This document shows positions 33,987 through 50,575 of a stretch of 64,000 bases of DNA, piece by piece. The notes beneath the pieces were generated by a model, which saw only the letters and a list, made by a program, of their open reading frames with translations, was not told the origin of the DNA and did no database searches. A program made the position numbers and the translations under genes. This DNA comes from Granulicella sp. (GTDB lineage Bacteria > Acidobacteriota > Terriglobia > Terriglobales > Acidobacteriaceae). The stretch covers positions 1 to 64,000 of the forward strand of contig DAIDGQ010000009.1 of assembly GCA_027452215.1 (NCBI GenBank), written 5' to 3'. Every line of letters starts with the position of its first letter. Position 1 is the first letter of the stretch.

Positions 33987-34649
33987 TCAGCTGGCGGCGC
34001 GGGCAATCCTGAGAAACTCGCGTGCGTTGTCTTCAGTCCTGCCCGGTTGGAAGATGGCGGAGCCTGCGACGAGCATGTCCGCTCCAGCTTCGACGACCGA
34101 GGCCACCGTATCGTGAGCAACACCGCCGTCGACCTCGATGCGGAAGTTGAGGCCGAGCGCTGTGCGCATGTCGCGAAGGAGGGCGACGCGTTCGATAGAG
34201 CGGGGAAGAAATTTCTGCCCCCCGAAGCCCGGGTTCACGCTCATGACGAGGACATGATGCACCATCGAAAGGACTTCGGAGAGCATCTCGACCGGCGTGG
34301 CGGGATTGAGGACGACGCCCGCGAGCATGCCATGGTCGGTGATGAGTTGCAGCGTGCGGTTGAGGTGGCGGCAGGCCTCGACCTGGACCGAGACCATGTC
34401 GGCGCCTGCCTCGGCGAAGGCGGGGATGAAGTTGTCGGGGTTCTCGATCATGAGATGGCAGTCGAGAGGGAGTTTGGTGACGGGACGGATGGCCTTGACG
34501 ACAGGAGGACCGAAGGTGATGTTGGGGACGAAGTGGCCGTCCATGACATCGACGTGGACGATGGTGCCGCCGCCGCGCTCGGCTGTGGCAATCTCGTCGG
34601 CGAGATGCGCGAAGTCGGCAGCGAGGATCGAAAAGGCTAGTTCAATCAT
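33987..34649 (-). CDS. rpe: Ribulose-phosphate 3-epimerase
   Basis: A 220-residue TIM-barrel enzyme interconverting ribulose 5-phosphate and xylulose 5-phosphate. HVDVMDGHFVPNITFGPPVV (about 33-52), DCHLMIENPD (about 67-76), VMSVNPGFGGQKF (about 137-149) and EVDGGV (about 178-183) are the metal and phosphate signatures. Length is typical. It completes the pentose phosphate set begun at 10.5 kb but lies 15 kb away in the opposite strand, 27 bp downstream of the UvrC-like gene and 100 bp upstream of the BamD-like gene. Confidence 0.95.
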   Translation of the reverse strand: MIELAFSILAADFAHLADEIATAERGGGTIVHVDVMDGHFVPNITFGPPVVKAIRPVTKLPLDCHLMIENPDNFIPAFAEAGADMVSVQVEACRHLNRTLQLITDHGMLAGVVLNPATPVEMLSEVLSMVHHVLVMSVNPGFGGQKFLPRSIERVALLRDMRTALGLNFRIEVDGGVAHDTVASVVEAGADMLVAGSAIFQPGRTEDNAREFLRIARAAS

Positions 34650-34676: not shown

Positions 34677-36173
34677 CTAGTCCGTGATGTCGGAGGGCGT
34701 GATGGCTTTGCGGGTGCGGGGGCGTTTGGGGAGGACGGGGACTTCGCGCTCGACGCCCTCGCGGCCGGGGTGGATGATCTTGGTTTTGAGAGCTTTGGCT
34801 GCTTCGCGATCAACTGCGGAGACCGGCGCGGGTGGGCCGAGGACGACGCGCGCGGCTCCGTTGAGGATGCGGCGGATGGGCCATTGTGGGTCGCTGCCGG
34901 AGCTGCTCGGAGAGACGACCGGCAGGAAGACTTCGCCCGCGCGCTGCTTCTCCGGGCGATAGTACCAGCGGCGGAAGAGCGATAGATTGTCGCAGAGTTC
35001 GGCGAGGTCGGCGGGGGACTGAGCGCGGGCGGTGAGGGCGTCGATGGCGGCGCGGGCTCGGTCTTCAGGAGTGAGCGTGGGTGTAAAGGGAGGCGCTTCA
35101 GGTGTGGGCGCGTCGACCTGGGCTGGCTCGTCGAGAGGAACGGCAGCGAGCATCAGCGGCTGTGCGAAGAGGCTGCTGCCGACGGCGGTCTGCTCGCGGA
35201 CGGCGCGGACGCCGAGCGTGGAGAGGCGCTCGGGGCCGACGATCTGGCCGTGCTCGAAGAGGAAGACGGCGGCGTCCTCGGTGCTTGCGGCATCCTCTCG
35301 CGGAGCGGCCTCCTGGAGGATGAGGGCGCGAAGATCGGCGACGGGGCGAACGAGTTCGTCGGCCAGCAGAGCGGCGGTGCGAACCTTCTCCCACTGCTTG
35401 TGGAGCGCGGCGGCGGCTTCGAAGTCCATGGCCTCGCTGGCGGCCTCGCGCTGGGCTGCAACCTCGTCGAGCAGAGATTGACCGCGGGTCATGAAGAAGG
35501 CGAAGACGCGCTGCGCTTCGTCCGCGTATTGGTCGGGGGTGCAGGCCTGCGGATTGCCCTCCTTGCAGGGCTGCAGGCACTTCTTCATCTCACCGTACAC
35601 GCAGCCCGGATGGTCGGGATAGGGCTCGAGATCTTCGTAACAGCGGCGCAGGAGAAAGAGGTCGAGCACGGCGTCGCAGTAGCGATCGGCCGCGGCTCGC
35701 GAGGGGAAGGGGCCGAAGGATTCGGGCAGAGATTTCTTGCTCAGGCGATTGGTGGAGTAGACGCGCGGATGCGTGTGCGACAGTGTTACGCGCAGCACGT
35801 AGGGAGCGTGCAGGCGCAGACGGCGGCGAGCTTCGTCGGAGCCGAAGGCGGAGCAGGACGCACGGTAGAGGAGGAGCGTGGATTCAAAGTCCGAACCGGT
35901 GCGGGTGTACTCGATGAAGCGGACGCGCTCGCGAAGGTTGAGGCGCCTGGAGAGGATGGGGCGACCCTGTTCGTCGACAGCTTCGGGCGGCGCGAGCAAC
36001 CGGCGCAGGCGGCGGCGAAGGTCGGCGGTGCGAGTCAGGTAGGGCTCTCCGGCTTCTCCGCGCAGAGCGAAGACGCCGGGGGAGGCGGGGATCGCGCGCA
36101 GAAGTTCGTCGGAGTTCTCCGGGAGGAACTCGATGCGATGGTCGAATGAGAATTGAGAAGAGGGCGCGGCCAC
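34677..36173 (-). CDS. UvrC-like protein with Fe-S cysteines, lacking the RNase H half
   Basis: A 498-residue protein related to the N-terminal half of excinuclease subunit C. The GIY-YIG-like start is degenerate: ASPGVFALRGEAGEPYLTR (residues 30-48) where UvrC has GVY...YVGKA. The cysteine set of the UvrC iron-sulfur region is kept at Cys178, Cys191, Cys199 and Cys203, and a UvrB-interaction UVR helix AMDFEAAAALHKQWEKV is at 248-264. The second catalytic (RNase H-like) domain and HhH tail are absent; the C-terminus is a Pro/Ala-rich linker plus a basic region ending in ITPSDITD. It may act with UvrB or be a regulatory relative. Lies in the tldD-rpe run. Confidence 0.78.
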   Translation of the reverse strand: MAAPSSQFSFDHRIEFLPENSDELLRAIPASPGVFALRGEAGEPYLTRTADLRRRLRRLLAPPEAVDEQGRPILSRRLNLRERVRFIEYTRTGSDFESTLLLYRASCSAFGSDEARRRLRLHAPYVLRVTLSHTHPRVYSTNRLSKKSLPESFGPFPSRAAADRYCDAVLDLFLLRRCYEDLEPYPDHPGCVYGEMKKCLQPCKEGNPQACTPDQYADEAQRVFAFFMTRGQSLLDEVAAQREAASEAMDFEAAAALHKQWEKVRTAALLADELVRPVADLRALILQEAAPREDAASTEDAAVFLFEHGQIVGPERLSTLGVRAVREQTAVGSSLFAQPLMLAAVPLDEPAQVDAPTPEAPPFTPTLTPEDRARAAIDALTARAQSPADLAELCDNLSLFRRWYYRPEKQRAGEVFLPVVSPSSSGSDPQWPIRRILNGAARVVLGPPAPVSAVDREAAKALKTKIIHPGREGVEREVPVLPKRPRTRKAITPSDITD

Positions 36174-36205: not shown

Positions 36206-37630
36206 TCAGCTTCCCGCGATGGTGAGGCCTTCGACGCGGATCGTGGGGACGGCGCCGGAGCTGCGGAATTCGAGGTCGTTGCCAATGGCTACGACGTTGC
36301 GGAAGATGTCCTTGAGATTTCCGGCAATCGTGATTTGTTCGACCGGGTAGGCAAGTTCGCCGTTCTCGATCCAGAGGCCGCTGGCGCCGACCGAGTAGTC
36401 TCCTGTGACGAGGTTCACGCCGTGGCCCATAGTCTGCAGCACGTAGAGGCCGGAGGGAACGCCGCCAATGATCTGCTCGGGTGTGAGCGCGCCGGGCTCG
36501 AGAAAGTAGTTGCCGCCGCCGATGCCGGGAGCTCCTGCGAGGCCGCGTGAGGCCTTGCCCGTCGACTCCATGGAGAGCTTGCGGGCGGTGTAGGTATTGA
36601 GCATCAGCTCTTTGAGGATGCCTCGCTCGATGACCACGGTGCGGCGGGTACGGAGGCCGTCGCCATCGAAGGGGCTGGTGCCGAAGCCTCCTACGCGGAG
36701 GGTCTCGCCGTTTGGCAACGTGTGGTCGAACACCATCGTGCCGTCGTCGATCATGGTGATGTTTTCGCCGGCGACCTGCTCCCCTAATTTACCGGAGAAC
36801 ATGGACGCGTTGCGGTAGATCGAGTCGCCGTCGGCTGCGGAGAGAAGGTTGCCCATGAGGCCTCGCGCGATCTCCGGAGCGAAGACGACAGGGCAGCGCT
36901 GCGTGGCGACGGGGCGCGCGCCAAGGCGGCGAAGGGCTCGTTCGGCGGCCTTGCGGCCAACCTCTTCAGGAGTGACAAGGAGCTTCGCCGAGCGTGCGCT
37001 CGAGTACCAGAAGTCGCGCTGCATGGCGCCGCTGGCGTCCTGCGCGATGGGCGTGACAGAGAAGCCGCAATAGCTGCTGCGGTACTCGCCAGAGAAGCCG
37101 CGCGAGTTGACCATGACGCGATGCAGGCTGCTGGCGTCGAAGTCTGCACCGGAAGAGTTCTGAATGCGCGTGTCGAAGGCCATGGCTGCGGCCTCGCAGC
37201 GGCGGGCGATGTCGATGCGTTCGGCGGGAGGGATGGCGTCAACGTCGTTGAAGTGGAGAGCGAGGCTGGCGACGTCGTTCAAGCCGAACGCAGCGCGGTC
37301 GGGCAGGCCGGCGAAGGGATCGGCGCCGGTGACCTTCGCGAGCTCAACGGCGGACTCGATGATGCGCGTGACGCCCTCGGGCGAGAGATCGCTGGTGGAG
37401 GTACTGGAGGTTCGTTGGCCGTCGCCGTCCGCGAAGAAGACCCGCAGACCAAGGGCGCGGGAGCCGGACTCGGTGAGCTGCTCGACCTGGCCGAGACGCA
37501 CGTTGACACCGAAGTCTTCGCTCTCGACGGCGACGGCTTCGGCATCCGTTGCTCCGAGATCGAGCGCTCGCGAGACGGCCTCTGCGGCGAGCTGCTTGAG
37601 ATCAGTGGCGTGCGTAGTTGTTGTGCTCAA
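36206..37630 (-). CDS. tldE: TldE/PmbA-type metalloprotease subunit
   Basis: A 474-residue member of the PmbA/TldD superfamily without an HExxxH motif, as expected for TldE. Recognisable regions include LGATDAEAVAVESEDFGVNV near the N-terminus, SGADFDASSLHRVMVNSRGF (about 158-177), GLAGAPGIGGGNYFLEPG (about 369-386) and TGDYSVGASGLWIENGE (about 413-429). TldD and TldE form a heterodimer that degrades unfolded or small peptide substrates, such as microcin precursors in other bacteria. TldD is encoded just upstream, with a small Cys protein between. Confidence 0.92.
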   Translation of the reverse strand: MSTTTTHATDLKQLAAEAVSRALDLGATDAEAVAVESEDFGVNVRLGQVEQLTESGSRALGLRVFFADGDGQRTSSTSTSDLSPEGVTRIIESAVELAKVTGADPFAGLPDRAAFGLNDVASLALHFNDVDAIPPAERIDIARRCEAAAMAFDTRIQNSSGADFDASSLHRVMVNSRGFSGEYRSSYCGFSVTPIAQDASGAMQRDFWYSSARSAKLLVTPEEVGRKAAERALRRLGARPVATQRCPVVFAPEIARGLMGNLLSAADGDSIYRNASMFSGKLGEQVAGENITMIDDGTMVFDHTLPNGETLRVGGFGTSPFDGDGLRTRRTVVIERGILKELMLNTYTARKLSMESTGKASRGLAGAPGIGGGNYFLEPGALTPEQIIGGVPSGLYVLQTMGHGVNLVTGDYSVGASGLWIENGELAYPVEQITIAGNLKDIFRNVVAIGNDLEFRSSGAVPTIRVEGLTIAGS

Positions 37631-37649: not shown

Positions 37650-37967
37650 TTAGGCTACGGGAGTGCCGGAGAGCCGAGTCTCGCGGCCATCGGTCGCGGC
37701 GTGAAAGCGAGCTCCCATGGGGCAATGTTCGGAGTCGCTCTTGAGCTTGTGCTCGACGTGCGAGACCGCGCCGGGAGTGTGGCGCTTGTGCAGTTTCAGA
37801 GCGCCATGGCACTCCTTGCAGCGGAACTCCGTATCGCCATCGAGGATGGCGTCGGCAACGCTCTTGAGCTTCCAGAAGGGCTCATATCCACCACTGGCCC
37901 GCACGCGGCGACGTTTCACTTCACACTCGAAAAGCTTCTCAGGGATTGCTGCAACTTTGGTAGCCAT
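37650..37967 (-). CDS. Small Cys/His protein between tldD and tldE
   Basis: A 105-residue soluble protein starting MATKVAAIPEKLFECEVKRR. FRCKECHGALKLHKRHTPG, followed by SHVEHKLKSDSEHCPMG, gives Cys-x2-Cys...His...His...Cys positions (about 59-90) suitable for a zinc site. AGGAAAGAAG lies just upstream of the ATG at 37967; the longer in-frame ORF to 38120 overlaps tldD and is rejected. It is 20 bp upstream of tldE and 63 bp downstream of tldD, so probably co-transcribed with both. Function unknown. Confidence 0.7.
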   Translation of the reverse strand: MATKVAAIPEKLFECEVKRRRVRASGGYEPFWKLKSVADAILDGDTEFRCKECHGALKLHKRHTPGAVSHVEHKLKSDSEHCPMGARFHAATDGRETRLSGTPVA

Positions 37968-38029
37968 GGTCTTCTTTCCTCGTGCGGTTGGAGATGCGTG
38001 AGCGGTTCTAATCCGAGTCGAAGAGCTGG

Positions 38030-39493
38030 TTAGTGGCCGGTACCACCGACGGTCATGCGATCGAGCTTGGTGGTGGGCATGCCGACACCCACGGGGACGC
38101 TCTGGCCGGCCTTGCCACACGTGCCAACGCCCTCGTCCAGGGCCAGATCGTTGCCTACCATCGAGACATACTTAAGCGCTTCGGGCCCGTTGCCGATCAA
38201 CGTTGCTCCCTTTACCGGAGCGGTGACGACACCGTCCTCGATGAGGTAGGCCTCGCTGGCGGTGAAGACGAATTTGCCGCTGGTGATGTCGACCTGGCCG
38301 CCTCCGAAGTTGACGGCATAGAGGCCTCGCTTGACGCTTCTGATGATGTCGGAGGGAAGGTCGTCGCCGTTGAGCATGTAGGTGTTGGTCATGCGCGGCA
38401 TCGGGATAGCTTGATAGCTTTCGCGACGTCCGCTGCCGGTGTTGGGCATGTTCATCAGGCGCGAACTGAGCTTGTCGGAGAGGTAGCCGCGGAGGATGCC
38501 GTTTTCGATCAGCACGGTCTCTTGCGTTGCGTTGCCCTCGTCGTCGACGTTGAGCGAACCGCGGCGGCCGGGCATCTTGCCGTTGTCGACGACTGTGACC
38601 TTCGGCGACGCGACCTTCTGGCCGATGAGACCGGCGAAGGCAGAAGTTTTCTTGCGGTTGAAGTCGGCTTCGAGGCCATGCCCTACAGCTTCGTGAAGCA
38701 GAACGCCAGGCCAGCCGGGGCCGAGAACGACCTCCATCTCGCCGGCCGGAGCGGCGATGGCGCCAAGCTGCAGGATGGCGGTCCGCGCCGCCTCGCGAGC
38801 ATAGTGCTCGGGCGATTTCTCGCCGGTGAAGAAGTCGAGCGTGATGCGTCCTCCACCTCCGGAGGTCCCTCGCGCGGTGTTGATTTCGTCCTTCGCAATG
38901 ACCGAAACGTTGAGGCGAGCGAGCGGCTGCGTATCGGATGCGAATGTGCCGTCGGAGGCGGCGATGAGGATGCGGCGGAGCTCGTCGTTGATGCTGGCGC
39001 GAACCTGCGTGATGCGAGGATCGAAGTCGCGGGCGGCCTTGTTTGCTCGCTCGATGAGCTTCAGCTTTGCCGCAACTTCAGCGTCGGCCGTGCCTCCGGC
39101 GACGGGATAGAGTGAAGGCGTTGCGGTCTCCGTAAAGCCCTGCACTCGCTGGGTCTGCGGGCCGTTGGCGATCAGCGCGGCGGTACGTGCGGCTTTGAGC
39201 AGGCGGTCCGGCGAGAGGTCATCGGTGTAGGCAAAGCCGGTGCGTTCGCCCGACAGAACGCGAATGCCGCAGCCCACGCTGATGCCCTGCGCCGCTGTCT
39301 TGACGATGCCTTCATCCATGCCAAGAGACATCGACGTGACCGCTTCGAAGTAGAGATCGGCGAACTCGCCACCAGCTGAAAGGGCCTCTCCGAGGCAACG
39401 CTCGAGGAGCCGCTCGGTCAGGCCGAGGTGGGTGAAGAAGTATCGTTTGTGGTCCGGGACATCGGAATGGAGAAGGTTTGGAGCGGCTGCCAT
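38030..39493 (-). CDS. tldD: TldD metalloprotease
   Basis: A 487-residue protease subunit with the TldD metal motif LLHEAVGHGLEADFNRK (about residues 265-281; the HExxxH zinc ligands). Other family regions are the N-terminal EFADLYFEAV, VFDNGxMPGRRG-type VVDNGKMPGRRGSLNVDDEG (about 309-328), and the C-terminal VKGATLIGNGPEAL (about 436-449). It pairs with TldE downstream. It appears to head the minus-strand run tldD, small Cys protein, tldE, UvrC-like, rpe, BamD-like; the divergent gene on the other side is an acyltransferase. Confidence 0.94.
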   Translation of the reverse strand: MAAAPNLLHSDVPDHKRYFFTHLGLTERLLERCLGEALSAGGEFADLYFEAVTSMSLGMDEGIVKTAAQGISVGCGIRVLSGERTGFAYTDDLSPDRLLKAARTAALIANGPQTQRVQGFTETATPSLYPVAGGTADAEVAAKLKLIERANKAARDFDPRITQVRASINDELRRILIAASDGTFASDTQPLARLNVSVIAKDEINTARGTSGGGGRITLDFFTGEKSPEHYAREAARTAILQLGAIAAPAGEMEVVLGPGWPGVLLHEAVGHGLEADFNRKKTSAFAGLIGQKVASPKVTVVDNGKMPGRRGSLNVDDEGNATQETVLIENGILRGYLSDKLSSRLMNMPNTGSGRRESYQAIPMPRMTNTYMLNGDDLPSDIIRSVKRGLYAVNFGGGQVDITSGKFVFTASEAYLIEDGVVTAPVKGATLIGNGPEALKYVSMVGNDLALDEGVGTCGKAGQSVPVGVGMPTTKLDRMTVGGTGH

Positions 39494-49789: not shown

Positions 49790-50575
49790 ATGCCCGAAGA
49801 GCTCTGCCCCATATGTGAAGGCGCTGGTTTGCGAGTAGTCGAGCGCGCCGACGGAACGCGCGTCGCCCGGCCCTGCGAGTGCCGGGTCGCACGGCGCTCT
49901 GCGCGCATGATCGAGCACGCGCGCATCCCTCAGCGCTACGCCCATTGTTCGCTCGAGAGCTACGATGCTCAGTTCAATCTAGCCGACCGCTCCCTCGGGG
50001 CCGCGCTCCTGCAGGCTAGGAATTTCGTGAAAGCATTTCCGCTTGAGACCGACGGCAAAGGGCTTCTGCTGGTCGGACCGATTGGAGTCGGAAAGACGCA
50101 TCTGGCCGTCGGCATACTGAAGGAACTCATCGTGGAGCGGGGAGCCAAAGGGCTGTTCGTCGACTACCGCGACCTGCTGAAGCAGGTGCAAAACTCATAC
50201 GGGCGCAACGATCTTTCGGAACGGGATATTCTCCTGCCGGTGTTTGAAGCGGAGGTGCTGGTGATTGACGAACTAGGCGCGGCCAAGCCCACCGACTGGG
50301 TCTGGGACACCGTTGCACACATCTTGAATACTCGCTATAACGACCGCCGTACGACGATCATCACCACGAATTATCACAACAGCAAAGAGACCGCCACGGG
50401 GCAATGGGACCATCTTCCGAAAAAGGAAAAGGAAGCGAAGATGGCGATGAGCGGAGATACCCTCGGGGATCGCATCACCGAGCGCATGCGCTCGCGGCTG
50501 CAGGAGATGTGCGTCGTCGTGGAGATGAACGGAGCGGACTTTCGGCAGAAGGTCATGCGCGCGACGTTTTCTTAA
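49790..50575 (+). CDS. DnaC-like AAA+ ATPase (helicase loader type)
   Basis: A 261-residue ATPase. An N-terminal zinc-like motif CPICEGAG...RPCECR (about residues 5-29) is followed by Walker A LLVGPIGVGKTHLAVG (about 84-99) and Walker B VLVIDELGAAKP (about 154-165), then sensor TIITTNYHNS. The layout fits the DnaC/IstB-type AAA+ family, which load DnaB helicase or serve transposition. There is no partner transposase nearby, which favours a chromosomal helicase loader. It is divergent from eutB, 166 bp away, and 50 bp upstream of a membrane protein gene in the same strand. Confidence 0.85.
   Translation: MPEELCPICEGAGLRVVERADGTRVARPCECRVARRSARMIEHARIPQRYAHCSLESYDAQFNLADRSLGAALLQARNFVKAFPLETDGKGLLLVGPIGVGKTHLAVGILKELIVERGAKGLFVDYRDLLKQVQNSYGRNDLSERDILLPVFEAEVLVIDELGAAKPTDWVWDTVAHILNTRYNDRRTTIITTNYHNSKETATGQWDHLPKKEKEAKMAMSGDTLGDRITERMRSRLQEMCVVVEMNGADFRQKVMRATFS

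Follow-up and report, generated by a model that had tools for sequence, protein, structure and literature searches.

Background

The closest described relatives of the protein reported here belong to the 'Cho-like' subfamily, which in the available part of the survey by Dunin-Horkawicz et al. (2006, PMC1564403) combines a GIY-YIG domain with the C4 cysteines and a UvrB-binding domain, and has no EndoV/RNase H, HhH or exonuclease domain; one exonuclease-less member is given there, from Gloeobacter. The same part of that source describes Cho as incising on the 3' side and as carrying a C-terminal domain peculiar to it. Excerpts of two further papers present small alphaproteobacterial 'UvrC-like' nucleases (PMC1839093) and Xanthomonas Cho (PMC518961) as other relatives of the N-terminal half of UvrC. 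In UvrC, an element between the two nucleases, which resembles the C-terminus of UvrB, is responsible for UvrB binding (excerpt of PMC7835731), and the available text of PMC9426483 cites the Fe-S loop as part of UvrC-DNA complexes and reports one role of Helicobacter pylori UvrC that is independent of the catalytic residues. Among the titles and abstract openings listed by searches of an open-licence library, none described a dead UvrC paralog or UvrC paralogs in Acidobacteria.

Here we describe a paralog of the N-terminal half of UvrC, labelled UVL, which is encoded in the window, that is, the whole stretch of 64,000 nucleotides of Granulicella sp. DNA analysed (Table 1). UVL matches the Cho-like architecture as given in the available part of PMC1564403, with the UVR element recognised by its core residues and not by the Pfam cut-off. 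It differs from that subfamily in lacking the catalytic Glu and Asn, in mostly carrying a conserved C-terminal module and in being spread through an acidobacterial class.

Table 1. Features of the UVL protein and of its genomic surroundings, in positions of the window.
Feature	Position	Strand	Evidence
UVL gene, paralog of the UvrC N-half; start GTG, stop TAG, product of 498 aa	34677..36173	-	ORF, profile matches, orthologs, dN/dS
Pseudo-GIY-YIG domain (residues 12-119) with retained fold, lacking the metal Glu and the Asn	35817..36140	-	alignment, AlphaFold model, fold matches
Predicted C4 iron-sulfur loop, Cys178/191/199/203	35565..35642	-	alignment; loop modelled at low confidence
UVR motif, residues 233-260, FExA core kept	35394..35477	-	Pfam PF02151, family alignment
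Beta-strand module after UVR, residues 282-318	35220..35330	-	AlphaFold model
Linker peptide, residues 321-340, partly in low-confidence linker	35154..35213	-	alignment, AlphaFold model
C-terminal RWYYR...GE module, residues 390-465, kept by most, not all, of the family	34779..35006	-	alignments, model
rpe, downstream neighbour of UVL, 27-base gap	33987..34649	-	ORF coordinates, profile match
tldE/pmbA, upstream neighbour of UVL, 32-base gap	36206..37630	-	ORF coordinates, profile match
tldD	38030..39493	-	profile match
DnaC/DnaI-like AAA+ ATPase; ortholog upstream of UVL in related genera	49790..50575	+	DnaI/DnaC models, below cut-off

Results and discussion

The UVL gene and its relation to UvrC-type proteins

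An earlier note, made from the sequence alone, had placed the gene between tldE and rpe with no adjoining uvr gene, and the profile matches of the neighbouring frames agree with this placement. The gene order tldD-(small ORF)-tldE-UVL-rpe-bamD recurs in the genus with variations. In most orthologs from the genus the alignment to the window UVL starts at residues 1-10, and those of near-full length are 65-81% identical to it. We obtained dN/dS ratios of 0.10-0.21 between the window UVL and seven orthologs with finite dS (an eighth comparison was saturated), and of 0.04-0.18 for four pairs among UVL relatives. The gene is thus under purifying selection, and the identity among genus orthologs together with the ratios of 0.10-0.21 argues that UVL is not a chance frame.

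UVL is homologous to UvrC over residues 25-266, a region that comprises the GIY-YIG fold, the C4 cysteines and UVR. The UvrC model TIGR00194 aligns to this region with 69.8 bits, against a cut-off of 285.45, and the alignment ends at model position 227 of 574, so that the matched part is the N-terminal half of UvrC. Neither Pfam nor NCBIfam profiles found an RNase H or HhH part in the window UVL, in agreement with the earlier statement that the second nuclease half is missing. Cho resembles UVL in being a homolog of the N-terminal half of UvrC without the 5' nuclease, but UVL scores 16.5 bits with the Cho model NF007833 (cut-off 367) and has lost the GIY-YIG catalytic residues.

The best NCBIfam match of the window UVL was NF005906 (PRK07883, DEDD exonuclease-UvrC fusions), at 102 bits against a cut-off of 495. 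Unlike these fusions, UVL has no exonuclease domain, and the match starts at model position 205 of 563. The same model gives ordinary acidobacterial UvrC-type frames about 160-259 bits; since these score higher, the match shows no special kinship, and we set aside the idea that UVL is an exonuclease-less sister of the fusions. Among 99 genomes of the phylum, none had a DEDD-UvrC fusion over the NF005906 cut-off.

In the phylogenetic tree, the UVL sequences formed one clade (SH-aLRT 99) apart from UvrC, on a UVL-UvrC branch that is very long and was flagged by the tree tool as a possible artefact. A sister group, here called f4-type (L072:4847-6007 and L073:3210-4343), consists of distant UvrC halves, 28-30% identical, which are without the catalytic Glu and Asn and also without the RWYYR C-terminal motif, and which adjoin other conserved genes than UVL does.

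Loss of the GIY-YIG catalytic residues

We compared the active-site residues of 107 UVL homologs with those of 28 full-length acidobacterial UvrCs (the canonical set) in one alignment. The UVL rows came from genomes of relatives and from public contigs, included the two distant f4-type proteins and possibly hold near-copies, so that the rows are not independent; L023, which has a broken frame, and four duplicates were left out. The N-termini of L006, L007, L009, L015, L023, L063 and L072 are arbitrary in the alignments, there being no ATG, GTG or TTG before the aligned start.

The aligned Glu, which we take to be the metal-binding residue of the GIY-YIG site (the role of the Arg residues is likewise assumed), and the final Asn of the site were each present in 28/28 UvrCs and in 0/107 UVL homologs. 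The Tyr of GIY was found in all 28 UvrCs and in three UVL homologs, 99 of the 107 having Phe instead, and the Gly of YIG was retained by six. The Tyr of YIG (101/107) and the Arg residues of NLRxR (first Arg 103/107, last Arg 107/107) were retained. The window UVL has Phe in place of the GIY Tyr, Thr in place of the YIG Gly, Leu in place of the metal Glu and Ala in place of the Asn; its YIG Tyr and both Arg residues are unchanged. The alignment with UvrC that the earlier note had suggested therefore bears out its description of an eroded GIY-YIG motif: the catalytic residues are not intact. The positions of the Tyr and the Asn agree with the titles of PDB mutants Y19F, Y29F and N88A.

In 3/107 UVL homologs an acidic residue lies no more than three columns away from that of the metal Glu, and in 57/107 an N or D lies equally near to the Asn column. 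These neighbouring residues leave some room for a shifted active site, and the latter make the loss of Asn a weaker argument than that of Glu.

AlphaFold models of the window UVL and of a 401-residue relative had mean pLDDT values of 81.8 and 87.6, respectively. Both are weak at the Cys loop (ten-residue means of 42-63) and at the C-terminal end, and the window model is also weak at linker residues 331-350. UvrC GIY-YIG domains gave the best fold matches, led by 1yd6 with Z 6.1-6.4 across 84-86 residues. With Foldseek E values of 0.004-0.01 these matches are modest, and 2lwf, a glutaredoxin domain from a plant, was level with the Thermotoga UvrC domain (Z 5.7-5.8). Because of the modest scores and this tie, the GIY-YIG assignment rests on the sequence alignment. 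A PDB sequence search with UVL gave no match. One row, L105, was dropped from the structure set, and 46 of the 70 usable rows entered the family alignments.

Iron-sulfur cysteines, UVR motif and later parts of the protein

Cys178, Cys191, Cys199 and Cys203 had been read as the iron-sulfur pattern of UvrC, and their positions proved right: they align with the four UvrC cysteines, are invariant in a 47-row family alignment, and have Cys in 107, 107, 107 and 106 of the 107 UVL homologs (one gap). The 47-row alignment shows one more invariant cysteine, Cys211, as the fifth.

The UVR helix is present as the earlier note had claimed, slightly upstream of the residues given there (233-260 instead of 248-264). 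In the window UVL it matches Pfam PF02151 with 17.8 bits, below the cut-off of 21.5, as the sole Pfam match of the protein, and 24 of the 47 family members have matches at E <= 0.01 (best 2.5e-07). The core is kept, with the E and the first A in 107/107 and the F in 105/107 UVL homologs. At one UVR position, Arg in 26/28 UvrCs is His in 105/107 UVL homologs. ClpC was among the structural matches, and UVR-like helices are found in other proteins too. UVL can thus be regarded, as the earlier note had proposed, as a UvrC-like factor distinct from UvrC, with the catalytic GIY-YIG residues lost and the Fe-S cysteines and the UVR core kept.

No other 20-residue block of UVL is as conserved as the linker peptide at residues 321-340, which is identical in 18 of 19 long-form members of the genus and has one substitution in L017. 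The short-form members L020 and L022, from which the peptide is missing, were dropped from this count, and L013, L023 and L025 never entered it. The same-codon rate among identical residues of the block (0.46) is ordinary for the gene; therefore selection acts on the peptide. An SLF.QP-like core occurs in 23/107 family members. A search of three genomes returned the UVL gene itself and one match at E=0.86, with no convincing second copy of the peptide. The possibility that it is a sliding-clamp motif was set aside, the fit being partial. The alignment used for the linker peptide and for the C-terminal module was made without L013 and L023. None of the structural matches listed covered the C-terminal module, an absence that is weak evidence.

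Distribution of UVL and of full-length UvrC

In a sample of 297 genomes of the phylum, UVL matches of at least 398 bits were found in 38/38 genomes of the window's own class, Terriglobia to judge by the names of related contigs (the window's genome included), and in 0/259 others, where the best match, in a UvrC-sized frame, had 174 bits. UVL is a paralog spread across the class and no oddity of the window genome. Among 61 relatives, UVL was found in 40 (23/28 members of the genus, 9/9 members of other genera of the family, 3/14 in a second family of the order and 5/10 in other families of the class), and two distant f4-type proteins were found in addition. The absence of UVL from five of the 28 genus members (one of them 93% complete) and from 11 of the 14 genomes of the second family marks it as dispensable. 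A public scan gave 555 UVL relatives among 558 stretches, and the best 80 of these 555 were examined; by their record titles, all 80 come from Acidobacteria or Terriglobia-type organisms.

Full-length UvrC over the cut-off was present in 54/61 relatives, the seven without it all being less than 90% complete, and in 36/40 UVL carriers. It was not found in the window's own genome, the assembly of which is 59% complete; UvrB is present there. The three genomes with the most similar UVL (G013, G014 and G021) each have a full-length UvrC.

Wider gene neighbourhood

The 80 public loci, being the best 80 of 555, are closely related and hence not independent. Of the 69 loci among them with room for it, 61 have a DnaC/IstB-like AAA+ gene upstream of UVL and in the same orientation (at less than 300 bases in 46). 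A DinB-type gene lies downstream in 42/72, and tldD/tldE lie further downstream in 33/56. The ATPase is just upstream of UVL in six of nine loci from other genera of the window's family. It is next to UVL in none of the ten loci that represent the class's other families; in one of these ten the two genes are about 5 kb apart. Both genes occur in 21 members of the genus, of which 11 have them no more than 30 kb apart on a single contig and ten have them on separate contigs. The ATPase persists in genomes without UVL. It is the DnaC-like ATPase, not any uvr gene, that the neighbourhood evidence favours.

The DnaC/DnaI-like ATPase was found in 26/26 good genomes and dciA in 24/26. In the available part of PMC5109545, none of 1,426 genomes kept dciA together with dna[CI]; the coexistence in our set is against this, so that either exceptions to the rule exist or the ATPase does not truly act as a helicase loader.

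Between tldE and tldD in the window lies a small Cys-containing ORF (37650-38120, minus strand), which adjoins these genes in 7/14 genus loci and had no match among NCBIfam models.

Possible function of UVL

We consider it fairly probable that UVL is a UvrC pseudonuclease that binds DNA without cutting it, attaches to UvrB or some other partner and modulates repair or replication factors, because both nucleases have been lost and the Fe-S loop, the Arg-rich surface and the UVR core have been kept under selection. Such a protein would not cut DNA. It may grip DNA with its Fe-S loop and with the Arg-rich surface of the pseudo-nuclease, and dock onto UvrB or another partner through the UVR helices, with the nearly invariant linker peptide possibly adding to the docking in the window's genus, and would thereby modulate where and when repair or replication factors act. 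The role of H. pylori UvrC that needs no catalytic residues (available text of PMC9426483) provides a precedent for a non-cutting role.

UVL could still be a 3' nuclease whose active site has been rearranged, comparable to Escherichia coli Cho, as the preserved fold, the retained YIG Tyr and Arg pair and the N or D near the lost Asn in about half of the homologs would allow; the metal Glu is replaced in every homolog, however, with an acidic residue nearby in three only, and we regard a retained nuclease as quite unlikely. Alternatively, the eroded active site and the patchy losses among relatives could mean that uvrC was once duplicated and that UVL is the decaying remnant, but the Cys, UVR and C-terminal motifs are conserved and the dN/dS ratios of 0.04-0.21 speak against a relic gene, leaving this explanation with almost no credibility.

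Further readings concern the partner of a non-cutting UVL. As a specific form of the docking explanation, UVL could be a UvrB decoy that, by sitting on the UVR domain at the C-terminus of UvrB, delays UvrC incision or sets its timing. The loss of the nuclease residues, the FExA core conserved in 105-107 of 107 homologs, the UvrB of the window's own genome and the UvrC of most relatives are consistent with a decoy, but UVR serves other proteins too, no uvr gene adjoins UVL in the window, and the change from Arg to His in UVR may mean a partner other than UvrB; a decoy is therefore possible but rather unlikely. The nearly invariant linker peptide of the window's genus likewise hints at another partner. 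If this were the DnaC/DnaI-like ATPase, UVL would be an adaptor bringing helicase-loader-like activity to damaged or stalled DNA. The upstream position of the ATPase gene on the same strand in most of the 80 loci, its proximity on one contig in about half of the genus members with both genes and the coexistence with dciA, which suggests that the ATPase may not be the main loader, all fit such a partnership. Against it, adjacency is confined to the window's family, the 80 loci are closely related, and the ATPase is kept where UVL is missing, and we think this partnership unlikely. Its elaboration into a repair-replication adaptor, in which the Fe-S loop would sit on damaged or branched DNA and recruit the ATPase as a loader other than the main one, with the linker peptide of the genus as a docking motif, seems distinctly improbable; if true, the class could couple the reloading or removal of its replicative helicase to DNA damage.

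In UvrC, the Fe-S cluster and the UVR docking are difficult to investigate separately from the nucleases, and a family that keeps the Fe-S loop and UVR without both nuclease activities, as the non-cutting explanation holds, would be a ready-made separation of function. It would also show that a bacterial class has extended its repair set by a UvrC paralog that does not cut. Such genes are probably labelled 'excinuclease subunit C' in automatic annotation, and this label would mislead counts of repair genes.

Matches on plasmid and phage records

The idea of UVL as a plasmid or phage family was unsupported: tblastn with the short UVL of L062 matched 38 plasmid records, of which 20 were listed, and 11 phage records, none of them covering 80%, and the listed matches were annotated as uvrC or had no annotation there. 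One phage-labelled faecal contig (H23, MT836808.1:6379-7152) encodes a UvrC-N-like protein with 84 bits to UVL, above the other ten phage matches.
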